Virus record (IMG/VR): IMGVR_UViG_3300043427_001767
Coordinates: 1 to 39,728 of that record
Reading direction: 5' to 3' (one strand)
DNA from: a virus
Length of the DNA: 39,728 bases
A model generated the notes under the pieces. It made no database searches and had not been told where the DNA came from. It saw only the letters and a program-made list of their open reading frames with translations. How positions within the stretch are numbered: the first letter of the stretch is position 1; every line of letters starts with the position of its first letter. The translations under genes and the position numbers were made by a program. This document shows positions 6,941-36,685 of the stretch, piece by piece.

Positions 6941-7299
6941 CAGCTGATGTCCTCATACGAGATGACCAGCTCCAGATCACCAGCAGCGCTGGCCTGTGCT
7001 CTCAGGCTCTGGCCTTCCTCCAAGTAGACGTAGGCGTCCCGGCTGATCAACACCTGCGTTGCATCAGCCGGAACGGTGATCGTGTGCGCCACTTCGTATC
7101 CCGTCGTGCCGTCCCAGTGCTGCAGCGTGATGTCTGCTGCAGCGGTGCCGTCCACGTTGGCGCAGTAGACGCTGTTCACCTTCAGCACCTTGCCGCTGGC
7201 GGCACTGTTGCTCAGCGCTGCCGCCATGCTGGTCGTGACCGCATAGCCGATCGTCTTGCCGGTGATCGTGGTTGGGCTTTTGAGGTTTGGGGCGGCCAT
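6940..7299 (-). CDS. Small structural protein of fibre module (119 aa)
   Basis: Starts MAAPNLKSPTTITGKTIGYA. The compact all-beta-looking sequence contains GKVLKVNSVYCANVDG and VLISRDAYVYLEEGQSL. Proteins with this ITGKT...VYCANVDG layout recur beside fibre genes in cyanophages and other tailed phages and are virion components of undefined role. A motif-like CGGCAACCTAG lies 17 nt upstream of its ATG. Confidence 0.6.
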   Translation of the reverse strand: MAAPNLKSPTTITGKTIGYAVTTSMAAALSNSAASGKVLKVNSVYCANVDGTAAADITLQHWDGTTGYEVAHTITVPADATQVLISRDAYVYLEEGQSLRAQASAAGDLELVISYEDIS

Positions 7300-7316
7300 G
7301 GCAAGGGCTCAGTGCT

Positions 7317-7327
7317 CTAGGTTGCCG
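7317..7327 (-). promoter_or_regulatory. Weak recurrent motif copy (CGGCAACCTAG)
   Basis: Degenerate copy of the CGGAAASCTGA motif, 17 nt upstream of the 119-aa gene start. Confidence 0.25.
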
Positions 7328-7328
7328 G

Positions 7329-10300
7329 TTAATCCGCCCACCAGTCGGGATAAAGGTCGCTGTCCCATCCGTAGTTCTGCAACACCCAGTCACTCCAGTA
7401 GTCGGAAGTCGGGGCTGCTGTGCTCGCTGTCGGCGCCAATCCGGTGAGCGCAATAGACGCCAGCGGCACATCCACCAGGTCCGAGGTGGCGACAACTGGC
7501 GCCAATCCGGTGATGGTGACAACCGCAGCCGGCACATCAACGACGGTGCTTATTGCCACCTCTGGGGCCAGGGCGGAGATGGTCAACGTCGCGGCAGGAG
7601 CGGCGATGATGACAGCCAGCGGCGGCTGAACATGCTTGCCGCTTGCCACGGTCCAGGTGGTTCCTGCTGCGTTGCCCTCAAACACCCAGCTCTGGTTGGC
7701 AGCAAAGGTGCCGGAGGCCAGTGCAGTGGTGGCGGTTGCCAGCATGAGCGGACCCGCAACGCTGCCGGCGACATTGCCTGTGCGAACCTCCAGCCACTGA
7801 GAGCCGTCGCCGTTTGGCGAGTAGAAGGTAACCTCATGGAAGCGGTTGCTGTTCCCGGCGCCCGCCGCAAAATCGGAGTTCCCTTCCCAGCGAATTCTGA
7901 ACTCGTCGGTGCCGACCTTAGTGTAGACCCGCTGATAACTGAAGTCACCGGAGCCGACGTGCAGCTTCGGCAGGCTTGGTACAGATTCGCCCAAGTTTAC
8001 GTATTGATTACTGGTGCCGCCGAAGGTGATATAGCCATTGGAGTTGACGTAACAGGTGGCGTAGGCAACGTTGCTGAGCGTGAACTCAAAGCCGAAGTTG
8101 CCCGTCTGTGTCGCGCCTTCGTCTGCCGCGCTATTGAAGATGAGCTGCCAGCCATCATCTGTTGCTGCCGTAGTTGGCGACACTTGACCGGCGCCAAGCA
8201 CGGGCGCTGCGGTTCTTTCGACAATCAACCGCGAATAAGGGTCAATCAAGATGTCGGTTCCATCGACAAACGGCCCAGCCGCCAGTACATCCTCATCTGT
8301 TCCAGCGTCCAGCTCGTACTCAACCTCCACCACCCGCAGCGACGGCCCAGCGGCTACCGTGAAGCGCTCCAGCGTCAGTGTTGGCTGCACCAGTGTCACA
8401 TTGCTGCGCCATTCCTTGAACACATCCGCCCCATTGGTAGGAAGCGCTGTGAACACCGACGACAGGTTGCGCACGTCAAACCCACCAGGGATGTTGATGC
8501 TGTTCGCCTTGACTGGACTGGCCTCCACGGTCGTGCCACCTGCTGGGCCAATGGCAGACGGTGCCACCGGCAGCCGCAGCCAGCTGGTCGCCGGCGCGCT
8601 GGCCCCGTCGTAACCGGTCACGCCGATCAGCATCAGGTCGCTGCTGACGACCATCCCCTCAGGGCCCCAGGCGTAGCTGACGGCATCCAGCAGAAAGGCG
8701 CCCTCGATGCCGGCCAGGCGGATGTAGACCGGCGAGAGGTCCAGGGTTGGTGTCTCATTGAAGCCGGAGACGATGTTCTGGCCAAAGGAATGGCCGATGT
8801 CGAGCGCCGCTTCGGTCTGACCGAACTTTTCCGCTGCAGCACGGGCATTGCTGCGGTAGAGCTTGCGAATGCGCTTGTCGTAGTAGAAGTAATCATCCGG
8901 CGCGTACGGCATCGCATAGGTCGCTGTAACGGTCGGGTCATTGTCGTTATAGGACTGTCCATCAAACACCACCTGTCCGGTGATGGATTTGTCGTTGTTG
9001 ACCTCAGGCTCTGGGTTGAAGTAGGTGGTGTCGGTGTTAAAATCCTCAAAGCCAAACGGTGTGTTGTCTGCCCAGTCAGGGATGCCGTCACCGTTGCTGT
9101 CGATCGCTGTATTGAATGGGTCGCTTGGATCGGTAACGTAGTCCTGCCAGTTGCCGCTCGGCAGGTTATCGGCCCAGTCGGGGATGCCGTTGCCGTTGCT
9201 GTCGATCGGCGTGCTCTGCCAGTTAATCGGATCGACGACATAATCCTGCCAGTTGCCGGATGGCAGATTCTGCGCCCAGTCAGGAATGCCGTCGTTGTCA
9301 GTGTCAATAAAGGTATTCTGCCAATCCAGGGGATCGGTTACGAAGTCCTGCCAGTTACCGGATGGCAAGGTGCTGGCCCAATCCGGCACGCCGTCGCCGT
9401 TGCTGTCGATAAAGGTGTTAAACGGGTCGCTGGGATCCGTGACGTAGTCCTGCCAGTTGCCCGAAGGCAAGAGGTCGGCCCAGTCTGGAATGCCGTCGTT
9501 GTTAGTGTCGATCGCTGTGCTTTGCCAGTCAATCGGATCGGTAACGAAGTCCTGCCAGTTACCGCTAGGCAGGAAGTCCGCCCAGTCGGGAATGCCGTCA
9601 CTGTTGGCATCAATGGCGGTATTGAGCGGATCACTTGGATCGGTAACGTAATCCTGCCAGTCTTCACCTGGCGGCAAAAAGCTGGCCCAATCCGGCACGC
9701 CGTTGCTGTTGCTGTCAACGTTGACGTCCTCCCAGTCAATCGCAGGCGGCACATAAGCAGCCCAGTCAGGGACGCCGTTGTTTGACGTGTCGACGTTGAA
9801 GTCCTGCCAGTCCACTGATGGCGGGATGTACTCCGCCCAGTCGGGGATGCCAGTGCTGCCGCTGTCGGTGTTGATGTCCTGCCAATCAATCGCCGGTGGC
9901 ACGTAGGCTGCCCAGTCCGGCACGCCGTCGCCGTTGCTGTCCAGGTCGTAGTCCTGCCAGTCCACCGATGGCGGCACATACGCTGCCCAGTCCGGTACGC
10001 CGTTATCGGTGGTGTCTTGATTGAAGTCCTGCCAATCAACGGACGGCGGCACATAATCAGCCCAGTCCGGCACGCCGTTGCCGCTGGTATCAACGTTGTA
10101 GTCCTCAAACGTCTGCGGCACGAACGGCGCCCAGTCAGGCAAGCCATTGCCCGTGCTGTCTCGGTTGAAGTCCTGCCAGTCTGCGGTAGGCGGGACGTAA
10201 GCAGGCCAGCCCCTGTCGTTGCCGAACACCTCAGTCGGCGTAGCACCAGGCGGGATGTCGACGCCGTTAGTGACCTCACTGCCGGCCAGCTCGGAGTCGG

Positions 10301-11069
10301 AGGGCTTCGACGGGACAGGAGCGCGGCCGATGGAGACCTGAACTTCAGCGCCCTGGAACACCAGCTCCGAGTAACGACTGATCGCATCGTTGATGCGCGT
10401 TGAGCTTGCGATGTTGAGATCCTTGACCGCTTTCATCCAGCGCTCAAATGAGCTCTTGCCTTCGCTGGAAAGACCTAGCGCAATCCATCGGCTGGTTTTG
10501 GTGCGCGTGAAGTCACGACCGTCAGCACCCTTGGCCTGCTCGTACTCAACGATTGTCCGCTGACTCAGGTAGAGACTGGATGGCGGATCGTAGTAGAAGG
10601 GACTGAATAATAAACCACTCAACACGGTCCACCAGTATGGGATGCCCTGCAGCTGACCGGCAAGCGAGATGCCAGTAATGCTGACTTCTGTCGTTTCCCT
10701 GAACAGGATCGGCCCATCAACTGATGTTCGGTACTCGTATCTGGTTTCGGAGATCTCCTCATCATTGCCAGACGGGAGCCCACGATTGAACTTCAGCCGT
10801 GCGGAAACGTACTCAGGGTTGACCGACGCACGGGTTGTGACCTTGACATCTCTCTTGGAAACCTGTACGTCTTGCGTCTTTCGACTTCCTTCTCTGTCGA
10901 TGTAACTCAGTACCTGATAGCTTGATGTGCTGCTGCTTTTGGTTGTACTCAGCAATAGCTGCGTCTTTTCCTCCGGCTGCTGATTGCCGACTGGCTCGCT
11001 TTTCCATGCGATCGTGATCTTGTCCGGCGCGGAAATCGTCTCACTCTTTGTCCAATCTAGCAGGCTCAT
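7329..11069 (-). CDS. Giant repeat-containing tail-tip/baseplate protein
   Basis: 1246 residues. Residues 1-285 are a beta-rich hub-like N-terminus (SLLDWTKSETISAPDKI). Residues about 290-672 hold thirteen tandem PDWA repeats in two classes: seven short (about 25 aa, e.g. VDTSNNGVPDWAAYVPP) and six long (34 aa, e.g. IDSNGDGVPDWAS). Many contain a DxNxDGxxD loop like thrombospondin type-3/EF-hand calcium sites. Residues about 690-1110 are beta-rich, including a NIDO-like stretch (YVNSNGYITFGG). Near the C-terminus a 22-residue unit (ITGLAPVVATSDLVDVP) occurs 2.5 times. The start overlaps the previous stop as ATGA. Likely role: central fibre or host-specificity component, stabilised by calcium. 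Confidence 0.75.
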   Translation of the reverse strand: MSLLDWTKSETISAPDKITIAWKSEPVGNQQPEEKTQLLLSTTKSSSTSSYQVLSYIDREGSRKTQDVQVSKRDVKVTTRASVNPEYVSARLKFNRGLPSGNDEEISETRYEYRTSVDGPILFRETTEVSITGISLAGQLQGIPYWWTVLSGLLFSPFYYDPPSSLYLSQRTIVEYEQAKGADGRDFTRTKTSRWIALGLSSEGKSSFERWMKAVKDLNIASSTRINDAISRYSELVFQGAEVQVSIGRAPVPSKPSDSELAGSEVTNGVDIPPGATPTEVFGNDRGWPAYVPPTADWQDFNRDSTGNGLPDWAPFVPQTFEDYNVDTSGNGVPDWADYVPPSVDWQDFNQDTTDNGVPDWAAYVPPSVDWQDYDLDSNGDGVPDWAAYVPPAIDWQDINTDSGSTGIPDWAEYIPPSVDWQDFNVDTSNNGVPDWAAYVPPAIDWEDVNVDSNSNGVPDWASFLPPGEDWQDYVTDPSDPLNTAIDANSDGIPDWADFLPSGNWQDFVTDPIDWQSTAIDTNNDGIPDWADLLPSGNWQDYVTDPSDPFNTFIDSNGDGVPDWASTLPSGNWQDFVTDPLDWQNTFIDTDNDGIPDWAQNLPSGNWQDYVVDPINWQSTPIDSNGNGIPDWADNLPSGNWQDYVTDPSDPFNTAIDSNGDGIPDWADNTPFGFEDFNTDTTYFNPEPEVNNDKSITGQVVFDGQSYNDNDPTVTATYAMPYAPDDYFYYDKRIRKLYRSNARAAAEKFGQTEAALDIGHSFGQNIVSGFNETPTLDLSPVYIRLAGIEGAFLLDAVSYAWGPEGMVVSSDLMLIGVTGYDGASAPATSWLRLPVAPSAIGPAGGTTVEASPVKANSINIPGGFDVRNLSSVFTALPTNGADVFKEWRSNVTLVQPTLTLERFTVAAGPSLRVVEVEYELDAGTDEDVLAAGPFVDGTDILIDPYSRLIVERTAAPVLGAGQVSPTTAATDDGWQLIFNSAADEGATQTGNFGFEFTLSNVAYATCYVNSNGYITFGGTSNQYVNLGESVPSLPKLHVGSGDFSYQRVYTKVGTDEFRIRWEGNSDFAAGAGNSNRFHEVTFYSPNGDGSQWLEVRTGNVAGSVAGPLMLATATTALASGTFAANQSWVFEGNAAGTTWTVASGKHVQPPLAVIIAAPAATLTISALAPEVAISTVVDVPAAVVTITGLAPVVATSDLVDVPLASIALTGLAPTASTAAPTSDYWSDWVLQNYGWDSDLYPDWWAD
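7410..7610 (-). repeat. 66-nt tandem repeats coding LTxxLAP units
   Basis: About two and a half copies of a 66-nt (22-codon) unit near the 3' end of the giant repeat gene. Translated cores are ISALAPEVAIS, ITGLAPVVATS and LTGLAPTAST. Each repeat may form one beta hairpin. Confidence 0.6.
9050..10195 (-). repeat. Thirteen tandem PDWA-coding repeats (75-nt and 102-nt classes)
   Basis: On the plus strand the array shows as recurring GCCCAGTC-GG-ATGCCGT blocks. Seven units at the promoter-proximal side are about 75 nt. Six distal units are 102 nt and alternate between an SDPxN and a DWQxT subtype, giving a higher-order period of about 204 nt. This could change copy number by recombination. Confidence 0.8.
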
Positions 11070-12538: not shown

Positions 12539-15500
12539 TCAGCTCAGCAGCGTTCTCATCACCTGGGAGCCGGTGGGCCCGGTGCGGTGCTGGACGTGAA
12601 CGGACCAGTCGCGGCGGGCGAGGTTACCGACCTCCTGCCGTAGCTTGCCGACCTCGATCGCCAGCTCTGCCGTGCCGCCCCCGGTGCCGCTGGCTTCCAC
12701 CGCGGCGCGAGCCTGCAGCTGAGCCGTCATGCCGGCAGGGATGACCACGCCGTCAGATGGCGCGCGCCAGACCGAGTTGGCCGGGGCATTGATGAGGCTG
12801 AGCCGACCGGCCGACAGGAACGCCTCCTGGCCCAGCTCGTTGATCTTGTACTCACCGCCTGCCTCGACCGGGCCACCGGTCCATCGGGAGCCGGGGAGGT
12901 TGGAGGCTTTCTCCAGCTCTCGGAAGAAGTCGCCTGCGGCCCTGGCCGCCTCGGCCGTGCGGTCCCTGACCGCGGCCATGCTGGACTCCAGGCGGATGTC
13001 ACGGATGTTCTCCGCGAAGGACTTGGCCTTGCTCAGCCAGCCGGCGAAGTCACGGGCGCCCTGCACGGCAGCGGGGGCGCGATTGCCGACCTGCAGGAAT
13101 GCTTCAGCCACGGCCCCGGCCGGTGTGGCGGAGTCCTTCAGGCTGTCCTTGAGCCCATCGGCTTCACCCTTGGTGTTTTTGGCCCTGCCCTCAGCGTCAC
13201 CGAGGAAGCCAGCGATCTGATTAGCCGGCGTCCCCGCGGCCTGCAGCGACTGCCGGACGCCATCGGTGGCGGTCTTCGTCTGCCCAGCGGCCCTGCCCGT
13301 GGCGTCATACCCACCCTTGGCGCCGGCGAGCTGGCGGTTCATCTCCTCAACCGACCGGTTGACCTCCTGCTGGCTGCGGCCCAGCACCAGCGTGCCATCA
13401 GCTGCCCTGCCGATCGCCAGGCCCGACTGCCGCGCCAGCTCGGTGTAACGCTGCTGATCCGTAGCGCTGGCCTTGGTGACGGTACTGATCCGGCCCTGGA
13501 GCTCCACCAAGGTATTGGCCGGCTGGAGGGTGCCGTTCACGGCAAAGGCATAGCCCTTGGCCGCTGCCTCTGCCCGCAGGCCGTTGGCGGCCGCTTCCTG
13601 CTGGAAGCCCAGTGCGGCGCGCTCCAGGGGCTGGGTTTGAGCGAGCAGGTCGACCTGCTGGCCCTTGATGCCCAGGATCTGCGCCTGCAGGTTCACCTGG
13701 GCCTGTGCAGCATCGATGGCGAACTTGTCGCCACCCGCAACCGCCTTCTGCAGCTCCGCCTGCGCCTTCAGCAGCTCCGCCCGCTGCTGCATCACCGCCA
13801 GGTTCGCCTCTGTCCGCGCCTTCTCCTGCGTCAGCGCCAGCATTGTCCGCTGCAGCGCCTGCTCGGTCTGCAGTGCCTGGAAGCGGGCCTGCAGTGCCGC
13901 CTTGTCGTTCGCCTCGATCCGGGCCTTGATGGCACCGATCTGCTGCTCGCTGGCGCCGCGCCTCTCCGCCTGCTGCAGCTCAAAGCCCAGCGCCGAGCGT
14001 GTGACGGCATAGCGCGACTGCTCGGCCTGCCCGATCGCCTGCGCCAGGTTCAGCAGCTGCTGGCCGACCGCGAGCTGAGCGTCCAGATTGCGGATGGGGG
14101 CTTCGGCGATGATCTTGTTCAGCTGCGCCTCAGCGGCCGCCCGCGCCTTGATGGCTGCCTCCTGCTCCTTGGTGGCTGCCGTGATCTTCTGATTGGCCGG
14201 CAGCAGGGAGTTGAGCTGCTGCAACCGGATGTCGCTCAGCCTGATGTCCTGCCCGGCGGCCTTCGCCAGCGCTTCGTATTCCTTCGCAAGCTGCTGGTTG
14301 CCGCTGTTGCGTGCGGCTGCTGCCAGCTGCAGGTATTGATCCCTCAGCTTCACCGCCTGATCCCTGGCTGCCACCAGGGCGTTCGCCGTCGCGGTGATCT
14401 GCTGCAGCTGCGCAGTGTTTGGCGGGCCACCAGCATTCCTCAGCTCGGCAAAGAGCTTGCCCGCTGCGTTCTGTGCCGCAGCGGCCTGAGCCTGAAGGTT
14501 GCCAAGGGCAATGCCGGCTTGCTCCAGTCCTTGCGTGGCGTTAGCGTCATCAAATGCACCTTTGAGTGATCTGGCAAGTGCCATAAAGCCATCAATCGCC
14601 AGCTTGAGCGGTGGCATGCCAGCCAGGATGACATTCCAGATGTTTTTTAACGCATCGGCCGCAAAGTTACCGATACCGGGAATGTTCCGCAGTGGAGCAA
14701 GAAAGCCCTCCACCGAGATGGCGCCGTTCTGCCATGCCCTGGCGAACGGTCCGCCCAGTGTCGTGAGCTCACTGGTCTTGATGCCGGCGGCGGTGAGCGC
14801 CTTGGTCAGCTCCATCTGGCCCGCAGCCGCCGACTGGGCGATCCTCTGTGAATCAGCAGTGCTGGCGTTGTAGGAGGCGAAGGCCGCAGCGACACCGCCA
14901 ACGGCAAGCGCAAGCGGGCCGAACTTGGTTGCAAGGCCGACGATCTGCTGCTGCAGCTCACCAGTCTGCACAGAGGTCTTGAAGGCCAGCCACGCAGCTT
15001 TTGCGGTGGCGATGTCTGCGATGAACTGCGTTTTCAGCAGCACACCAAGAGCCTTGATGCCATCCATCGCGGCTTTGATCTGCCCACCGATCAGTTCGCT
15101 GTTGAAGGCGATCACTGCCAGCCGTGCCGCCACATAAGCAGTCGGGAGGCCGACCACCACCGCTGCGAGCGCCTTCAGCGGTGCCGGCGCGTCAATCGCG
15201 GCCTGCGCTGCATCCGCCAGACCCTTGGCGATGTTGGTCAGTGCCTCGATGACCGGTAATGACGCCCGCACAAAGACATTGCCGACCGTGACGCTCAGCT
15301 CATTCCATGCAACCCGCTGGGCATTAATCCGCTCCTGCGTAGATTGCAATGTAGTGCCGAGCTTGCTCAGCTCGGCTTCATTCATGCCTCGGATCGCCCT
15401 AATCACGATGTCGGAGGTGATCTTGCCTTCACTGCCGAACTGCTTAACCTGCCCAACGGTGATGCCCATCTCCTTGGCAATCGCCTGAGCGATCGGCGGC

Positions 15501-16546
15501 ATCTGCTCCATGATGGAGCGCAGCTCATCACCCTGCAGAGTGCCAGCCGCCAGGCCCTGGCTCAACTGCAGCACTGCCGCTTGCACACTGCCGGCGCTGA
15601 GGCCGAAGTTCTTGGCGGCAGCGTTGGTGGCTGTGAAGACGGTGCTGATGTCATTCAGGCTGATGCCCGTTGGTCGTAGAGCCCCGTAGAGCTGCAGGAA
15701 GCCCTCTGCCGCCTCGGTGTTGGTGATATTGAGCTGTTTTGCGCTTTTAGCCACCAACTGCTGGATCTGATCCGTCTCACCGAACTGACCGCCGAGCGCC
15801 TTGATGCGCACCTGGGCAGACTCGGCGGCTACAGCAGCGTCATAGGCGCCCTTGGCGAAGGCGGCCAGTCCGGTGCCAATGCCGATGGCAGCAATCGCCG
15901 GGCCAAGGGACTGCATCACGCCCTGTAGTCCTGATGCCGACTGCGTGGCGTCCCTCAGCTCCCCTTCGGTTTCGCGGATGGCACCCTGCAGCTCCTTGAA
16001 TCGCTGGCTGCCGATCGGCACCTTGGCCAGTTCGCTCTGCAGGCCTTGCAGTTTGGTATTGAGCGCCGTGATGCTGTTGGCATCAACACTGACGAGGATC
16101 TTGTTCCGCTCAACCTCTGCAATCTCCGCCTGCGTGCGATCAATCTGCCGCTGCAGATCGATGAACTCACTGCTGTCAACGTCAACCTTGACCTGTGCTG
16201 ACTGCAGCGCCTGCAGCTTCGACTGCAGCGCCGTGATAGACCGGCTGTCAACACCGATCGCCACCTGCCGGCGCTGGATGGCATCCAGCTGAGCCTGCAC
16301 CGCCTTGATCTGCTGCCCGGCGGCAGTGAACGCCCGGCTGTCAACATCGACCTTGAGCTGCCGTTGCGTCAACCGCTGCAGCTCCTGCTGCAGGGCTGTG
16401 ATGCTCCTGCTACTGAAACCCTGCAGGCCCTCCGCCAACCCCCTGCCCGCACTGGCGCCTGCCGCCTTGGCGTCCTGCTCCAGCTTGGCGAAGCCGCGCA
16501 GGATCGCGCTGGCGTCAAAGTCAACTGAGACTGTGAAGTCGCTCAT
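12539..16546 (-). CDS. Tail tape measure protein
   Basis: 1335 residues, by far the longest helical protein here. Its length would set a tail of siphovirus size. Residues 46-197 contain three 55-residue repeats alternating helix and VDVDS-type strands. Residues about 200-430 match the conserved tape-measure N-terminal domain (SAGSVQAAVLQLSQGLAAG, GDELRSIMEQMPPIAQAI, GKITSDIVIRAIRGM). Two hydrophobic stretches follow (about 445-470 and 525-545), as expected for membrane insertion during DNA delivery. Long Gln/Ala-rich coiled coils fill about 680-1000. The ATG overlaps the preceding stop (ATGA). Confidence 0.93.
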   Translation of the reverse strand: MSDFTVSVDFDASAILRGFAKLEQDAKAAGASAGRGLAEGLQGFSSRSITALQQELQRLTQRQLKVDVDSRAFTAAGQQIKAVQAQLDAIQRRQVAIGVDSRSITALQSKLQALQSAQVKVDVDSSEFIDLQRQIDRTQAEIAEVERNKILVSVDANSITALNTKLQGLQSELAKVPIGSQRFKELQGAIRETEGELRDATQSASGLQGVMQSLGPAIAAIGIGTGLAAFAKGAYDAAVAAESAQVRIKALGGQFGETDQIQQLVAKSAKQLNITNTEAAEGFLQLYGALRPTGISLNDISTVFTATNAAAKNFGLSAGSVQAAVLQLSQGLAAGTLQGDELRSIMEQMPPIAQAIAKEMGITVGQVKQFGSEGKITSDIVIRAIRGMNEAELSKLGTTLQSTQERINAQRVAWNELSVTVGNVFVRASLPVIEALTNIAKGLADAAQAAIDAPAPLKALAAVVVGLPTAYVAARLAVIAFNSELIGGQIKAAMDGIKALGVLLKTQFIADIATAKAAWLAFKTSVQTGELQQQIVGLATKFGPLALAVGGVAAAFASYNASTADSQRIAQSAAAGQMELTKALTAAGIKTSELTTLGGPFARAWQNGAISVEGFLAPLRNIPGIGNFAADALKNIWNVILAGMPPLKLAIDGFMALARSLKGAFDDANATQGLEQAGIALGNLQAQAAAAQNAAGKLFAELRNAGGPPNTAQLQQITATANALVAARDQAVKLRDQYLQLAAAARNSGNQQLAKEYEALAKAAGQDIRLSDIRLQQLNSLLPANQKITAATKEQEAAIKARAAAEAQLNKIIAEAPIRNLDAQLAVGQQLLNLAQAIGQAEQSRYAVTRSALGFELQQAERRGASEQQIGAIKARIEANDKAALQARFQALQTEQALQRTMLALTQEKARTEANLAVMQQRAELLKAQAELQKAVAGGDKFAIDAAQAQVNLQAQILGIKGQQVDLLAQTQPLERAALGFQQEAAANGLRAEAAAKGYAFAVNGTLQPANTLVELQGRISTVTKASATDQQRYTELARQSGLAIGRAADGTLVLGRSQQEVNRSVEEMNRQLAGAKGGYDATGRAAGQTKTATDGVRQSLQAAGTPANQIAGFLGDAEGRAKNTKGEADGLKDSLKDSATPAGAVAEAFLQVGNRAPAAVQGARDFAGWLSKAKSFAENIRDIRLESSMAAVRDRTAEAARAAGDFFRELEKASNLPGSRWTGGPVEAGGEYKINELGQEAFLSAGRLSLINAPANSVWRAPSDGVVIPAGMTAQLQARAAVEASGTGGGTAELAIEVGKLRQEVGNLARRDWSVHVQHRTGPTGSQVMRTLLS
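15955..16411 (-). repeat. 55-residue coding repeats in tape measure N-terminus
   Basis: Units of 24 + 31 residues (SRSITALQ...VKVDVD followed by SxxF...VAIGVD) occur at residues 46-100, 101-155 and 156 to about 197, the last being incomplete. Each ends with a VDVD/IGVD strand. Confidence 0.7.
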
Positions 16547-16968
16547 GCGCTCACCACGGCTGTGACGTTGGTCCAGGCGATGACCACCTGATCAATGACG
16601 CCGATCCCCTCACCAGGCGGATCGCCATCCATCGCCCGGGCCGTGGCGCCAGGCAGGAGGGCCATCACCCGCTCGGCCATCGCCTGCAGGGTGTCGGCGG
16701 CACCCCAGGCGGCGACGTAGATGCGGAACGTCGGGTTCAGCAGCACCCCGCTGTAGAGCGTCCGCGGCCCGTACATCGGCAGGCGGCTGATGCTCACCTC
16801 GATGCCGTCCATCGTCGTGCCCGGCGGCAGGCTCTCACCAGCGAACAGCGGCACCATCGCGGGCGCTGTCGTGCCGTCCTTGAACGTGTAGGTGCCCAGG
16901 CCGTCCGCGATGGCCTCATCTGCCATCAGCAGATCGAACAGCTCGGCAGCGGTCGCGGGGAGGGCCAT
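16543..16968 (-). CDS. Tail completion/terminator-like protein (141 aa)
   Basis: Begins MALPATAAELFDLLMADEAI at ATG 16968 and ends with VIDQVVIAWTNVTAVVSA. Size, alpha/beta pattern and position between tail tube and tape measure genes fit a small tail-completion protein. Lambda gpU-like or gpG-adjacent proteins are alternatives. It is coupled by ATGA to the tape measure gene. Motif CGGAAAGCTGA lies 3 nt before its start. Confidence 0.5.
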   Translation of the reverse strand: MALPATAAELFDLLMADEAIADGLGTYTFKDGTTAPAMVPLFAGESLPPGTTMDGIEVSISRLPMYGPRTLYSGVLLNPTFRIYVAAWGAADTLQAMAERVMALLPGATARAMDGDPPGEGIGVIDQVVIAWTNVTAVVSA

Positions 16969-17009: not shown

Positions 17010-17249
17010 ATGGGACTGCCGCTGCACGAACAGCTGAGCCATGAGAAGTGGCGGCGGATGATCAACGACGCCGTACCGGGCGACCTCGAAGCGCTCCGGC
17101 AGCTGACGCACACGATCTTGAACTGGGGCATCGCCTGCCGTGGCCTGGCGCTGGAGCGGGCCCGCCAGATGCTGCCGCAGCAGGAAGCCCCGACCGCCGA
17201 GGCGACCGGGGCCGTGCCGTCACCCTGTGATCAGAACTCCAGCTCGTAG
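17010..17249 (+). CDS. Hypothetical plus-strand island gene (79 aa)
   Basis: Begins MGLPLHEQLSHEKWRRMIND. The first 50 residues look helical and well composed (LEALRQLTHTILNWGIACRG); the C-terminal 25 are low complexity and overlap the tail-tube gene end by 19 nt on the opposite strand. It is one of four single plus-strand genes inside the minus-strand morphogenesis operon, so it probably has its own promoter in 16969..17009. No function recognised; moron-like accessory gene by context. Confidence 0.55.
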   Translation: MGLPLHEQLSHEKWRRMINDAVPGDLEALRQLTHTILNWGIACRGLALERARQMLPQQEAPTAEATGAVPSPCDQNSSS

Positions 17250-18070
17250 GGGCCGTAGGCCCGCACGGTGGTGCTGTACTTCACGATCGTGCCAGCCTGC
17301 GGCGACTCCTCGAAGCCAGTGAAGCGGCCGTAGCCGTAGCTGGTCTCGTTGAAGCCGGTCGGGCCCTGGCGGGCGTACTTGATCATCAGGCCCTCGCGCA
17401 CGCTCTCCTTGGCAGCGATGCGCATGAGCTTGTAGGCGGCATCGTTGTGATCGGTGACGCCCTCCAGGCTCCAGCTCATCGACTTGCTGGTGGCAACGCT
17501 GGTATCGAACGACTTGGTTTCGTCGTCGTAGGTGATGATCGTCTCCTCACCTTCCGACTCGCTCGGGGCGCAGTTCATCAGGCCCAGCAGGCGGATCGGG
17601 CTGTCCGTGCCATCAAGGGCGAGCACCGCGCCGCTGACGGTGCCGGCGTTGACGGTGGCCTCGGCCTGGTTCGTCTCGGTCGTGGCGAACGTCAGCGTGA
17701 AGGGGCTGTTGGTCGTCACGCCGGTGATCACCCGGGTGCCGTTGAGGCCCGCGAACGGAGACGGCAGGCCGGCCACCACGATCGTGGCACCATTAGCGAA
17801 GCCGTGGGCGGCAGCGAAGGTCAGCGTGGCGACGCTGCTGGCGATCTGCGCTTTGGTGACGGTCTTGGTGCCGCCGGCGATTAGCTTGAAGGTGGCGCCC
17901 GTACCGGTCGGGAACACCAGTGCGCTGTTGCTCAGCAGGGTGGTGTTGTTGATGAACTTCCCGGCACCGAGGCCCGCACTGGGCAGCAGGGTGGCCAGGT
18001 CAACGGCCGACTTCTTGATGACCTGAAAGAAGAAGTTGTAGCCGTAGGCCTGTGAATAGACCTGAGACAT
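17231..18070 (-). CDS. Major tail tube protein
   Basis: 279 residues from ATG at 18070 (MSQVYSQAYGYNFFFQVIKK). The longer frame from 18151 adds an unlikely leader. The C-terminal half carries typical tube features: YDDETKSFDTSVATSKSMSW, then NDAAYKLMRIAAKESVREGL, and the ending TVRAYGPYELEF. Residues about 70-155 form an inserted Thr/Val/Gly-rich beta domain (TFAAAHGFANGATIVVAGL), resembling Ig-like/surface modules found in phage structural proteins. It lies downstream of the chaperone pair and upstream of the tape measure gene. Confidence 0.82.
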   Translation of the reverse strand: MSQVYSQAYGYNFFFQVIKKSAVDLATLLPSAGLGAGKFINNTTLLSNSALVFPTGTGATFKLIAGGTKTVTKAQIASSVATLTFAAAHGFANGATIVVAGLPSPFAGLNGTRVITGVTTNSPFTLTFATTETNQAEATVNAGTVSGAVLALDGTDSPIRLLGLMNCAPSESEGEETIITYDDETKSFDTSVATSKSMSWSLEGVTDHNDAAYKLMRIAAKESVREGLMIKYARQGPTGFNETSYGYGRFTGFEESPQAGTIVKYSTTVRAYGPYELEF

Positions 18071-18176
18071 GATCGGCGATCCAGTGGACTCGCCGTCAGT
18101 GGTCCCGATCGCACAAGCCGACCCGCTGGCTTGCGGATGGGCCTGGAACACTGACCAGAGCTACCCACCGCAAGCC

Positions 18177-18506
18177 GTGAGCGCCTACCCGCCCGGGATC
18201 AGCTATGTGCCGGAGGTGAACAAGATCCGGCCGTTTCAGGCCCGCTTTACCTGGCAACGCCGCCGCTACTCGCTCGGCTACTTCCGCTCGGTACTGGAGG
18301 CCGAGCTGGCGCTCAACCGCGTCAGGCGGGAGGCGGCAGAATGGGCAGAGATGCAGCTGCCACCGCCCACACTGCAGCGGGTTCTGGCGCGGCAGGGACG
18401 GCAAGCCACACCGTCGCCTCCGGTTGCCCCGGCGGATGAAACGCCCGCGGCTGAGCCGATGCCTGCCCCTCAGCGATCAGGAAGCCCGTCCAGCCCTGCG
18501 GCGTGA
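18177..18506 (+). CDS. AP2-like DNA-binding domain protein (plus-strand island)
   Basis: Using GTG at 18177 the product begins SAYPPGISYVPEVNK and continues RPFQARFTWQRRRYSLGYF followed by an EAELALNRVRREAAEW helix. That is the three-strand-plus-helix pattern of a small AP2/ERF-type DNA-binding domain. An ATG at 18069 in the same frame would add 36 residues but overlaps the start of the divergent tail-tube gene. Neither start has a clear ribosome site. The C-terminal low-complexity tail overlaps the end of the chaperone GT gene for 185 nt on the other strand. Possible regulator or remnant of an HNH-AP2 element. Confidence 0.6.
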   Translation: MSAYPPGISYVPEVNKIRPFQARFTWQRRRYSLGYFRSVLEAELALNRVRREAAEWAEMQLPPPTLQRVLARQGRQATPSPPVAPADETPAAEPMPAPQRSGSPSSPAA

Positions 18507-19526
18507 ACCGCGGCGCCAGCAGGATCGCATCGGTGGCCACCAGCGCCAGGGTTGGCGGCGGGTTGGCGTCCTTGCCGGCAGCCTGCAGGGCCCCGTAGAA
18601 GGCCAGCGCCCAGGACGGGAACTGCCCGGCGGCGATGAGCGCCAGCATGGCGGCACCAGCCTCAGCAGGCGGCGCATCACCGGGCTGGCGGGGCTTAAAC
18701 AGGAACAGGTCGTCCAGCTCCGGCACCTTGCCGCCCTCGCGGGTGTGGCAGGCGATCAGCCGCTGATGCAGGTAGGCGATCGGGATCTCGGCGTGGTGCA
18801 GCCGGCTCAGCTCGCGGCGTTCGCCTTCCTCGATCGCTTCGAGGATGTAGGTGACGGGGAGTCGGGCGAAGTGGTCGCGGCTGAAGTCTCGATCACCGGG
18901 CCAGAGCTCGCGGCATCGCCAGTAGGCGGCGCCCCAGTCGGTGGGCTTTGGGAGTCGGCCGGCCCGAGCTTTCCCAGCGTCTCGACCATGCCCTCGATCA
19001 GCTCCTCAGGACTGCGCTGCGGCTGGTTGGCGTTGCGCTCGCTGTCGATGAACGCGGCGATCGCCTGCTGCAGCGGTTGCGGCAGGGTGTCGGTGTCATC
19101 AACGGTCCAGGCCTTGCAGCCGGGCAGTCGATGGGCGATGGCGGCGGTGACGGTGCGGCGCACCTGCTGGGCGTAGTCCGCGGCCAGCGTGGCCTGGATC
19201 CTGGCCACCAGGTCGGCATGACGCAGGAGGATGCGCTGCTCAGCGGGCTCCAGTGGCACGGGGATGCCGAGACGGGTTGAGAGGCAGCGGATGGCGAGCC
19301 GTTGCGCTTCCGTCTCTTCGCTGCCTTCGCTCACCAGTGCATCGGCCAGTCGGGAGGATTCGCGGTAGACAGCAGCCTGGTAGTCGCTGTCGCGGATGTC
19401 CACCTCCTCGCCGGCCAGCAGGGAGCCGAAGACGGGAAACTCAAGGCTGCAGGTCTGGCCGTTGATCTCCGCGCTGATGGTGCGCGTCTCGCGCTTGGGC
19501 GCGACGACGAAGGGAAGCGATGGCAT
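18322..19526 (-). CDS. Tail assembly chaperone GT (-1 frameshift fusion product)
   Basis: Predicted 401-residue product: 186 codons of the G frame to the slippery site GGGAAAG (18969-18975), then 215 codons in the -1 frame to TGA at 18322. The -1 frame is closed by a TGA at 19006-19008 and open from there to 18322. The translated extension is protein-like (RDHFARLPVTYILEAIEEGE, AYLHQRLIACHTREGGKVPE), not noise. In lambda the T domain recruits tail tube subunits while G binds the tape measure. Expected to be a minor product. The same architecture and slippery sequence as lambda G/GT make this a strong call. Confidence 0.85.
18807..19526 (-). CDS. Tail assembly chaperone G (unshifted product)
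   Basis: 239 residues from ATG at 19526 (MPSLPFVVAPKRETRTISAE). The N-terminal part is a compact alpha/beta domain with EFPVFGSLLAGEEVDIRD. After about residue 190 the zero frame becomes Ser/Thr/Pro-rich (TSAATTSPDSPSPTSSKRSR), which is typical of the non-functional tail left where a frameshift site precedes. Non-virion chaperone that coats the tape measure protein during tail assembly. CGGAAACCTGA lies 21 nt upstream of its ATG. Confidence 0.85.
   Translation of the reverse strand: MPSLPFVVAPKRETRTISAEINGQTCSLEFPVFGSLLAGEEVDIRDSDYQAAVYRESSRLADALVSEGSEETEAQRLAIRCLSTRLGIPVPLEPAEQRILLRHADLVARIQATLAADYAQQVRRTVTAAIAHRLPGCKAWTVDDTDTLPQPLQQAIAAFIDSERNANQPQRSPEELIEGMVETLGKLGPADSQSPPTGAPPTGDAASSGPVIETSAATTSPDSPSPTSSKRSRKANAAS
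18969..18975 (-). promoter_or_regulatory. -1 ribosomal frameshift slippery site GGGAAAG
   Basis: In the zero frame it reads G GGA AAG, the X XXY YYZ pattern, with the same heptamer as lambda G/T. It lies inside the only stretch where both frames are open (19005 down to 18807). No comparable in-frame heptamer was seen in that stretch; a CCCAAAG 20 nt downstream is out of frame for slippage. Confidence 0.85.
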
Positions 19527-19558: not shown

Positions 19559-20008
19559 TCAGCGGCTGGCCTTGAACCTCGCCAACCAGACATCTCGGAG
19601 CCGCTGCTCCAGCGGGAAGGGCTTGATGCCGGGCACCTGCACGGTGCCGAGCACGGCGGAGGTCCAGGGGCGGGCGGGCCACTGCGAGGCGCTGCCGTCA
19701 GCGCGCCGGCGGCGATAGCCCTCATGCACAGCCGTGGCGTAGTTGGCGGACCAGACGAAGCGGGCCGAGTAGGGCCCGGTCATCTGGTAGGTGCCGGACT
19801 GACGCAGGTTCCCGATGTCGATGATGTTCCGCGGGCTACCGGCGGTGCCGACCGTGCGCTGCGTGGTGCCAGGCCATGCCCAGGCCTTAGCGGTGAAGCT
19901 CTGCTGAAACGCCGCGAACAGCTCGCGCATCGCTGCCTCAGTGGCCTTCTTCGCCGCGTCCTCGGCCCGCCCTTTGAGGCTGCCGTTGACCTTGACGTTG
20001 ATACTCAC
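19559..20008 (-). CDS. HK97 gp10-like tail completion protein
   Basis: 149 residues. A basic helical N-terminus (MSINVKVNGSLKGRAEDAAK) is followed by DIGNLRQSGTYQM and YATAVHEGYRRRRADG, then ARPWTSAVL. This DxGxLRxS...YAxxVHEG...RPW order is the signature layout of HK97 gp10/minor tail completion proteins that join head connector and tail. It overlaps the upstream gene by ATGA and lies just before the chaperone pair. Confidence 0.75.
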   Translation of the reverse strand: MSINVKVNGSLKGRAEDAAKKATEAAMRELFAAFQQSFTAKAWAWPGTTQRTVGTAGSPRNIIDIGNLRQSGTYQMTGPYSARFVWSANYATAVHEGYRRRRADGSASQWPARPWTSAVLGTVQVPGIKPFPLEQRLRDVWLARFKASR

Positions 20009-33696: not shown

Positions 33697-34190
33697 TCAC
33701 CACCCACTGGATCAACCTCACCAACGGCCTGCAGGCGATCCGCGACTACGGCCTGACCGACTGGCGAGCGCTCCGGCTGCAGTCGACCTGGTGCGAGCAG
33801 AAGCGCTGGGAGGACGTGCTGGCCAGCGTGCCGGATGAGATGCTGCTGCGCCTGGCACTGGGCCAGGAGTGCCGCGTCTACGACTACGGCGCCCGCAAGC
33901 CACAGAGCCGCGCCTGCTGGCAGGGCCTGGAGTGGGTCCGCTATGCGCTGACGCGCCGCTGGACCGGCGAGCTGCTGCAGCCGGTGGGCCGCGCGGCAAG
34001 CATGGCCGGCTACCTGGACCAGCAGTATCAGCGCCTGAGTGACCGGACCCTCCGCCGGCTCGACTATTACGCCACCGCGGCGGGGTCACCGGGCCGGCCG
34101 GTGCTGACGGCGGTGTGCGGGCCGACCGAGCGGGACGGGGATCGGGAGTGGCTGTTCAGTGCCCTGCGGGGTGTGGAGGTGGTGGCGTGA
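33693..34190 (+). CDS. Hypothetical protein (165 aa) upstream of helicase-methylase
   Basis: ATG 33693 overlaps the preceding stop. Contains NGLQAIRDYGLTDWRALRLQ, QKRWEDVLASVPDEMLLRLA and RACWQGLEWVRYALTRRWTG; helical, Trp/Arg-rich. The stop overlaps the GTG of the helicase-methylase gene (GTGA), so it is likely co-translated with it and may assist it. No family recognised. Confidence 0.65.
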   Translation: MITTHWINLTNGLQAIRDYGLTDWRALRLQSTWCEQKRWEDVLASVPDEMLLRLALGQECRVYDYGARKPQSRACWQGLEWVRYALTRRWTGELLQPVGRAASMAGYLDQQYQRLSDRTLRRLDYYATAAGSPGRPVLTAVCGPTERDGDREWLFSALRGVEVVA

Positions 34191-36685
34191 GCAACTACCA
34201 GCAGTTCCTCTCCGAGAAGGTCCGCATGGCACCGCGGGCCGGTTTTGACGTGGCGCCGGATGATGTACATCAGATCCTGCTGCCCCATCAGCGCGATGCC
34301 GTGCGGTGGGCCTGCGCTGGTGGCCGCCGTGCGCTGTTCGAGGCGTTCGGCCTCGGCAAGTCGGTGCAGCAGATCGAGATCCTGCGCCTGTGCCGGCTGC
34401 AGTCATCGGGGCCGGCGCTGATCGTGGTGCCGCTCGGTGTGCGTCAGGAGTTCCGCCGTGATGCGGCGATGCTCGGCGTGCAGACGCGGTTTATCCGCAC
34501 CGATGCGGAGGTGGATCCTGAGTTTGATGGCATCCACCTGACCAACTACGAATCGGTCCGCGATGACAAGCTGGACCCGGCGCAGTTCATCGCCGCCAGC
34601 CTTGATGAAGCGTCGGTGCTGCGATCGTTTGGCAGCAAGACGTATCAGACGTTCCTGGACAAGTTCCGCGATGTTCGCTACCGCTTCGTTGCGACGGCGA
34701 CGCCATCACCGAACCGCTATAAGGAGCTGATTCACTACGCCGGCTTTCTCGGCGTGATGGATACCGGACAGGCGCTGACCAGGTGGTTCAAGCGCGACAG
34801 CACGCAGGCGAACAACCTGACGCTTTATCCGCACAAGGAGCGTGAGTTCTGGCTGTGGATGGCGAGCTGGGCGCTGTTCCTGCAGCGGCCGTCGGATCTG
34901 GGCTACAGCGACGACGGCTACAGCCTGCCTGACATCAAGGTGCATTATGTCGAGGTCGAGGTTGACCACGGCACCGCTGAGCCGGACCGCGATGGGCAGG
35001 GGAACTTGTTTCGTGATGCAGCGCTGGGTGTCACGTCTGCCAGCCGCGAGAAGCGCCACACGCTGACCGCGAGGGTGGATGCAGCGGCTCAGATCGTGGA
35101 TGCCCATCCGGGCAGTCACTGGATCCTGTGGCATGACCTGGAAACGGAACGGCACGCGATCCAGAAGGCAATCCCTGAGGCCGTCAGCATCTACGGCAGT
35201 CAGGATCTGGACCTGCGCGAGCAGGCAGTGATCGACTTCTCGGAGGGCAAGTTCCCGATCCTGTCAGCTAAGCCTGTGATTGCCGGCAGTGGCTGCAACT
35301 TCCAGCGCCACTGCCACCGTGCGATCTATGTAGGCATCGGCTTCAAGTTCAACGACTTCATCCAATCGCTACACCGCATCCAGCGATTCCAGCAAAGCAA
35401 GCCTGTCGAGGTGTGGATCATCTACGCCGAGTCGGAGCGCGTGGTGCTGAAGACGTTGCTGGAGAAGTGGGAGCGTCACAAAATCATGGTGGAACAAATG
35501 AGCGAGATCATCCGCGAGCATGGCCTAAGCCAGGCGGCGATGGCCAGCATCCTGACCCGTTCGATCGGTGTGGAGCGCATCGAGGCGAGCGGCAATGGCT
35601 GGATCGTCGCAAACAATGATTGCGTCGAAGAGTCCAAGCTGATCGCTGCTGACAGCGTGGGGCTGATCGTCACGTCAATCCCGTTCAGCAACCACTACGA
35701 ATACAGCCCGAGCTACAACGACTTCGGCCACACGGACAACAACGATCACTTCTGGCGCCAGATGGATTATCTGACGCCTGAGCTGCTGCGAATCTTGAAG
35801 CCGGGTCGGATTGCTGCGATCCACGTTAAGGACCGCATTCAGTTCGGCAATGTCACCGGCGCAGGTTTGCCAACGGTGAGCCCATTCCATGCGGAGACAA
35901 TCTTTCACTACCGCAAGCATGGGTTCGACTTCATTGGCCTGATCACGGTCGTCACTGACGTGGTGAGAGAGAACAATCAGACCTATCGGCTGGGTTGGTC
36001 TGAGCAATGCAAGGACGGCTCGAAGATGGGCGTCGGATCACCTGAGTACATCGTGCTGATGCACAAGCCGCAGACCGATCGCACGCGCGGGTATGCGGAT
36101 GAGCCGGTGAAGAAGTCGAAAGACGACTACAGCCGAGCACGTTGGCAGACCGATGCCCATGCGTTCTGGCGCAGCAGCGGCAATCGCAGCCTGACACCGG
36201 ATGAGCTGTCGCAGCTTGGCCCTGATCAGTTGGCCAAGATCTACACCGCCTACAGCCTGGCTGAGATCTATGACCATGAAGCGCATGTGCACATCGGCGA
36301 AGAACTCGACGGTCGCAGCTGCCTGCCATCAACGTTTATGTCGCTGGCGCCAGGAAGCCACGCAGATCATGTCTGGCATGACGTGAACCGGATGTTGACG
36401 CTGAACGGCGAGCAGACGAAGCGGGGCCTGGAGAACCACATTTGCCCACTTCAGTTCGACATTGTTGACCGTCTGATCCGTCGCTACAGCAACGAAGGCG
36501 ATCTGGTGTTTGATCCGTTCGGCGGTCTGTTCACGGTGCCATTCAGAGCGCTGCATCTGGGCCGCAAAGGTCGCGCTGCGGAGCTTTCGACGGCGTACTT
36601 CATGGACGGCGTGAAGTATCTGCAGGCGGCCGAGCACAAGGTATCAATGCCGTCGCTGTTTGATGTTGCGGAGGTGGCAGCGTGA
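34187..36685 (+). CDS. SF2 helicase / DNA methyltransferase fusion
   Basis: 832 residues from GTG 34187. N-terminal helicase: LLPHQRDAVRW Q-like motif, FGLGKS Walker A (54-59), LDEAS motif II-like (about 139-143), TATPSPNRY motif III (about 169), QSLHRIQRFQQ motif VI (about 394). C-terminal methyltransferase in beta-class order: catalytic TSIPFSNHYEYSPSYNDFG (about 496), then SAM-binding VFDPFGGLFTVPFRALHLG (about 775). The first Pro of the usual S/D-PP-Y/F is Ile. Possible protection from host restriction or a DNA modification/transactions role. No cognate endonuclease is recognisable beside it. Confidence 0.88.
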   Translation: MSNYQQFLSEKVRMAPRAGFDVAPDDVHQILLPHQRDAVRWACAGGRRALFEAFGLGKSVQQIEILRLCRLQSSGPALIVVPLGVRQEFRRDAAMLGVQTRFIRTDAEVDPEFDGIHLTNYESVRDDKLDPAQFIAASLDEASVLRSFGSKTYQTFLDKFRDVRYRFVATATPSPNRYKELIHYAGFLGVMDTGQALTRWFKRDSTQANNLTLYPHKEREFWLWMASWALFLQRPSDLGYSDDGYSLPDIKVHYVEVEVDHGTAEPDRDGQGNLFRDAALGVTSASREKRHTLTARVDAAAQIVDAHPGSHWILWHDLETERHAIQKAIPEAVSIYGSQDLDLREQAVIDFSEGKFPILSAKPVIAGSGCNFQRHCHRAIYVGIGFKFNDFIQSLHRIQRFQQSKPVEVWIIYAESERVVLKTLLEKWERHKIMVEQMSEIIREHGLSQAAMASILTRSIGVERIEASGNGWIVANNDCVEESKLIAADSVGLIVTSIPFSNHYEYSPSYNDFGHTDNNDHFWRQMDYLTPELLRILKPGRIAAIHVKDRIQFGNVTGAGLPTVSPFHAETIFHYRKHGFDFIGLITVVTDVVRENNQTYRLGWSEQCKDGSKMGVGSPEYIVLMHKPQTDRTRGYADEPVKKSKDDYSRARWQTDAHAFWRSSGNRSLTPDELSQLGPDQLAKIYTAYSLAEIYDHEAHVHIGEELDGRSCLPSTFMSLAPGSHADHVWHDVNRMLTLNGEQTKRGLENHICPLQFDIVDRLIRRYSNEGDLVFDPFGGLFTVPFRALHLGRKGRAAELSTAYFMDGVKYLQAAEHKVSMPSLFDVAEVAA

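Follow-up and report, generated by a model that had tools for sequence, protein, structure and literature searches.

The tail module of this viral genome very likely encodes a tail-assembly chaperone pair of the G/GT kind, made by programmed -1 frameshifting at a slippery heptamer. The window, i.e., the whole stretch of 39,728 nucleotides that was analysed, carries a G-like gene followed by a second domain (T) in the -1 frame, and a ribosome slipping back by one base would join the two into a GT fusion (Table 1). Programmed -1 frameshifting in this gene is strongly supported by sequence comparison, given that the site, its phase and the open -1 frame are conserved in relatives, the frame under selection changes, and usable starts in the -1 frame are few; from these sequence patterns, we infer the slippage itself. 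The chaperone role is suggested by the position in the tail module, by the G/GT architecture and by the absence of the corresponding proteins among the listed virion proteins of the cyanophage P-SS2.

Table 1. Positions in the window of the frameshift gene, its parts and the neighbouring tail-module genes.
Feature	Position	Strand	Remarks
Neck / tail-completion (HK97 gp10-like) gene, upstream of the pair	19559..20008	-	phrog_5; Pfam below cut-off
Whole frameshift gene, predicted GT fusion of 401 aa	18322..19526	-	
G-like gene, zero frame, 239 aa (ATG)	18807..19526	-	Folded domain to about residue 186, then Ser/Pro-rich tail
Slippery heptamer G GGA AAG (GGGAAAG)	18969..18975	-	In phase with the 239-aa ORF
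Dual-coding overlap 3' of the slip site (zero-frame tail and -1 frame T)	18807..18968	-	159 nt plus stop
T domain, -1 frame, slip site to stop	18322..18975	-	217 aa including the shared G-K
Major tail (tube) protein, downstream of the pair	17231..18070	-	phrog_38654 (tail protein), phrog_1407 (major tail protein)
Small conserved tail-module gene, S-CBS2 gp18 homologue	16543..16968	-	Tail terminator is a guess
Tape measure protein	12539..16546	-	TMP_3 and PHROG match

The heptamer had been pointed out in an earlier note on this DNA, and both its coordinates and its reading as G GGA AAG in the zero frame were verified on the minus strand. It is the sole in-phase heptamer of the X_XXY_YYZ form found in a scan of the 239-aa ORF. 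As the note had also described, the -1 frame is closed upstream by a TGA (19008-19006); it is open from 19005 and reaches its stop at 18324-18322, and joining the two frames at the heptamer gives the fused product of the expected length. A start-to-stop ORF listing returns the very pair that conventional gene calling had been predicted to report, namely 239 aa from the ATG and 134 aa from a GTG at 18726. The first ATG, GTG or TTG of the -1 frame lies 249 nt past the heptamer.

Relatives were collected by searching viral contigs, and named phages as well, with each half of the gene and then with alignments of both halves. Profile search detected both halves in 132 records, and an in-phase GGGAAAG, AAAAAAG or GGGAAAA was present in 131 records, which gave 75 distinct fusions after identical ones were merged (17 clusters at 50% identity). 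Some of these pairs end at a contig edge, and two loci stand outside the 75: L003, which has no canonical heptamer, and L072, whose 5' end is cut before the junction. The site, its phase and the open -1 frame are kept throughout these pairs: the second ORF is shifted into the -1 frame in 75/75 and every junction carries a heptamer in phase (GGGAAAG in 59, AAAAAAG in 15 and GGGAAAA in one). In 12 pairs the heptamer is immediately followed by the zero-frame stop, in three the stop comes within 15 nt, and the remaining 60 have 57-198 nt of dual coding. A scan of genome contigs with a single pattern recovered no relative. A chance heptamer is ruled out, since the three strong heptamers are present at all 75 junctions and occur 0 times in the 13,278 upstream in-phase codons of the same pairs, where 11 heptamers of any X_XXY_YYZ form were found. 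In L003 (about 1345-1380), GGAAAAG takes the place of GGGAAAG and the zero-frame stop comes 15 nt further on; its close relative L002 has GGGAAAG, and the difference reflects either genuine variation at the site or an error in the sequence.

Structures were modelled from alignments covering 44 of 50 representatives for each half, with the four named-phage loci and loci cut at an end left out. The G model (mean pLDDT 84.7; 44 sequences) consists of a beta hairpin and a helical body, and its well-predicted part ends near residue 186, the lysine of the slippery site; the last 50 residues have a pLDDT of about 50-60. The T model (mean pLDDT 89.8) is helical in its first half and beta-rich in its second, and begins about 14 residues past the site. 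The confident part of the modelled G fold is thus predicted to end at the slip site, with a separate T domain starting beyond it. Neither half matched a named chaperone in Pfam, PHROGs or PDB sequence searches. Neither fold had a convincing match among solved structures: for G, the best E against the PDB was 0.48, and the best VIA-align Z scores (G, 7.2, to channel helices; T, 3.8) are within the range that this tool treats as common. Each half had one match below 0.001 in BFVD, to the unnamed entries F4YCJ6 (181) and C7F4B1 (177), which from their lengths would be S-CBS2 gp15 and P-SS2 ORF065. The window's G half matched no PHROG. All 44 aligned T domains matched phrog_34388, a family of unknown function; for the window's T the match begins at residue 45 of the -1 product, so that the family represents only part of T and does not show the fusion.

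The genes are transcribed in the order neck, G/GT, major tail protein, small conserved gene and tape measure. The product assigned as major tail protein has 49% identity over 127 aa to gp19 of S-CBS2, and gp19 passes Pfam Phage_tail_2. A major tail protein homologue lies 3' of T in 61/75 pairs and 5' of it in 0/75; such a match is absent from five of the 64 pairs with at least 1000 nt downstream (L023, L121, L123, L125 and L126). Among named phages, T matches occur in eight records, every one of them a cyanophage, and the named relatives are S-CBS2, S-CRES1-3 and P-SS2; the host is therefore probably a picocyanobacterium.

The virion data from these phages bear on the role of the pair. Judged by the order of the accessions, G and T of P-SS2 (ACT65626 and ACT65627) are its ORF064 and ORF065. 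In the accessible portion of the P-SS2 report, the virion proteins of ORFs 061, 062, 063 and 066 are given averages of 16, 3, 5 and 2.5 peptides, and its Table 2, in which a protein is included for a database hit, a proteomic detection or a metagenome hit, jumps from 063 to 066, so that ORF064 and ORF065 are absent from it (PMC2784084). The S-CBS2 record names gp13, gp14, gp18, gp19 and gp20 as structural and gp15 and gp16 as hypothetical. In lambda, gpG and gpGT are not found in mature virions, according to the accessible portion of a published account (PMC5009743). The P-SS2 table and the S-CBS2 names agree with a release of both products before virion completion, as described for lambda (PMC5009743), non-detection being by itself a weak indication.

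A real frameshift pair might also serve another purpose, for example as a neck or tail-completion protein whose minor form has extra C-terminal sequence, and this is the alternative that survives best, albeit as an unlikely one. It would suit a pair that adjoins a neck gene, precedes the major tail protein and matches no known chaperone family in Pfam or PHROG, and the tape measure gene of P-SS2 (54104-59761) lies about 18 kb from T (35765). However, a neck protein of the virion would be expected in virions, and the accessible P-SS2 table contains the neighbours of ORF064 and ORF065 and not these two. Furthermore, the gap between major tail protein and tape measure in S-CRES1 is 96 nt, and therefore no second chaperone pair can be hidden there. 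A tail-assembly chaperone pair remains the preferred reading of the frameshift gene.

Frame-specific selection was measured as the synonymous share of single-change codons. The comparison used 54 pairs of long-overlap representatives, not independent of one another, whose overlaps are equally long and whose DNA is 60-97% identical. Upstream of the site, this share was higher in the zero frame (0.73) than in the -1 frame (0.14). Within the overlap, the -1 frame had the highest value, 0.55, followed by the zero frame (0.29) and the third frame (0.22), and past the overlap the shares were 0.63 (-1 frame) and 0.18 (zero frame). Purifying selection thus moves from the zero frame into the -1 frame at the heptamer, and the downstream frame is constrained as a coding continuation of the first ORF.

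It is very improbable that the two ORFs are independent genes, with the -1 ORF starting by itself (at the GTG at 18726, giving 134 aa) or by re-initiation past the zero-frame stop and with no frameshift at all. The deposited records of S-CBS2, S-CRES1, S-CRES3 and P-SS2 do annotate the pair as two CDS, an ATG, GTG or TTG occurs in the -1 frame by +90 nt in 13/75 pairs (e.g., the ATG at +21 in L002), and rare starts such as CTG or ATT might conceivably serve. Against this, the -1 frame has no ATG, GTG or TTG up to +90 nt in 62/75 pairs and up to +45 nt in 69/75, despite the conserved T residues that fall inside this mostly start-less stretch; P26, F31, L39 and Y43 are examples, and all four would be lost from a product started at GTG 18726. 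The start-codon scan rules out an independent start of the -1 ORF for most relatives, and independent genes would leave the conserved heptamer unexplained. Slippage of the RNA polymerase instead of the ribosome is scarcely credible, since it needs longer runs than the runs of at most three in the GGGAAAG of 59/75 pairs, the six-A run of AAAAAAG in 15/75 being what speaks for it.

Under programmed frameshifting, most ribosomes on the G-like gene would reach the zero-frame stop and produce G, and some ribosomes at G GGA AAG would move back by one base, pair anew with GGG AAA and continue in the -1 frame, yielding a GT protein of 401 aa. On the lambda model, the tape measure protein would be coated by plentiful G together with a little GT, the T domain of GT would recruit the major tail protein, and both G and GT would depart before the virion is finished. 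Signals that might stimulate the slip were sought on both sides of the heptamer. Folding of the 75 nt 3' of the heptamer against shuffles in 50 representatives gave a mean z of -0.53 with 5/50 below -2, as compared with a mean z of -0.10 and 11 below -2 in 177 control segments from 30 representatives, and the window's own value was -0.08; a general downstream RNA element was not found among these representatives. The five folds with z < -2 were those of L021 (-4.92), L088 (-4.83), L121 (-2.61), L081 (-2.35) and L046 (-2.18). The folds of L021 and L088 are unusually stable and not common to the others, and they may represent a lineage-specific stimulator. Shine-Dalgarno duplexes before the site had mean energies of -4.81 (33), -8.12 (4) and -5.11 (13) against -3.39 in 490 controls, in a test that was uninformative because its positive control failed, the value before G starts being only -1.81 (48).

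Several other genes of the window were observed in passing. An opposite-strand ORF (18069-18506, plus strand) is conserved, converges with T and overlaps its 3' end; its product, which seems AP2-like, has no Pfam match, and the S-CBS2, S-CRES1 and S-CRES3 records annotate an HNH endonuclease at this place. A reverse-strand match to this ORF or to the S-CBS2 HNH endonuclease was found in 66/75 pairs, a count that overstates independence because part of the match covers T's own coding sequence. A minus-strand gene (7329-11069) encodes a protein of 1246 aa that has no Pfam or PHROG match and in which a repeat of about 20 residues (DWQDFN...NGVPDWA..VPP) recurs many times, and a long antisense ORF (7287-9785, plus strand) lies opposite it. 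A plus-strand gene (34115-36685), running against the structural genes, encodes an 856-aa protein that combines a SNF2-type helicase part with an N6/N4 DNA methylase part.

For siphoviruses related to Synechococcus and Prochlorococcus phages, this reading would correct the annotation of two hypothetical or loosely named genes to one gene with a frameshift extension, and it predicts which proteins guide tail assembly in them. A search confined to the space between the major tail protein and tape measure genes misses such pairs. No published description of this pair was found in a literature search by title and abstract opening, and words starting with "frameshift" occur 0 times in the P-SS2 paper (PMC2784084).

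A 2004 survey by Xu and others reportedly dealt with frameshifted tail chaperone pairs. In the accessible portions of the published accounts, such pairs form a well-known functional class (PMC5009743; PMC10885494) whose members share little sequence (PMC5009743). The general picture of tail-chaperone frameshifting is unchanged by the present pair, which has the overlapping, shifted-frame downstream ORF within the tail module that characterises the class and occupies an unusual position in it. The likeness to lambda, which the earlier note had put forward as a lambda-type G/GT pair, holds for the heptamer, GGGAAAG being also found in lambda G by the same scan, for the T extension in the -1 frame and for the location in a tail module. 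It does not extend to gene order, and no kinship in sequence was detected. The alignment with lambda G/GT that the note had suggested gave no match by hhalign against single lambda sequences, and the genes of lambda run U, V, G, T, H, whereas here G-T precedes the major tail protein and does not lie between it and the tape measure gene, as it would in the narrow lambda sense. In addition, 15 nt of zero frame are left after the heptamer in lambda and 159 in the window. The pair was therefore not classified as a homologue of the lambda one, given the undetected similarity and the different gene order.

Closer counterparts are found in cyanophages. In P-SS2, ORF064 is a homologue of G with 29% identity and ORF065 one of T with 32.5%; the T part likewise occupies the -1 frame, GGGAAAG is in phase, and the pair precedes a homologue of the small conserved tail-module gene; unlike in the window, there is no major tail protein match just downstream of the pair, and the two are annotated as hypothetical proteins. 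In S-CBS2 (gp15/gp16), S-CRES1 and S-CRES3, T is homologous (34-39% identity) and in the -1 frame with an in-phase slippery heptamer, and the pair is upstream of the major tail protein. S-CBS2 and S-CRES1 differ in having AAAAAAG with the zero-frame stop directly after it, and S-CRES3 has GGGAAAG with 3 nt of zero frame left as against 159 in the window. It is conceivable, though doubtful, that the cyanophages share a pair unrelated by descent to that of lambda, which reached the G/GT solution independently from a different place in the operon. In this reading, that place is beside the neck genes, before the major tail protein and, in P-SS2, far from the tape measure, and the signal of the family takes two layouts, one with the stop directly after the heptamer and the other with a dual-coding overlap of up to about 200 nt.
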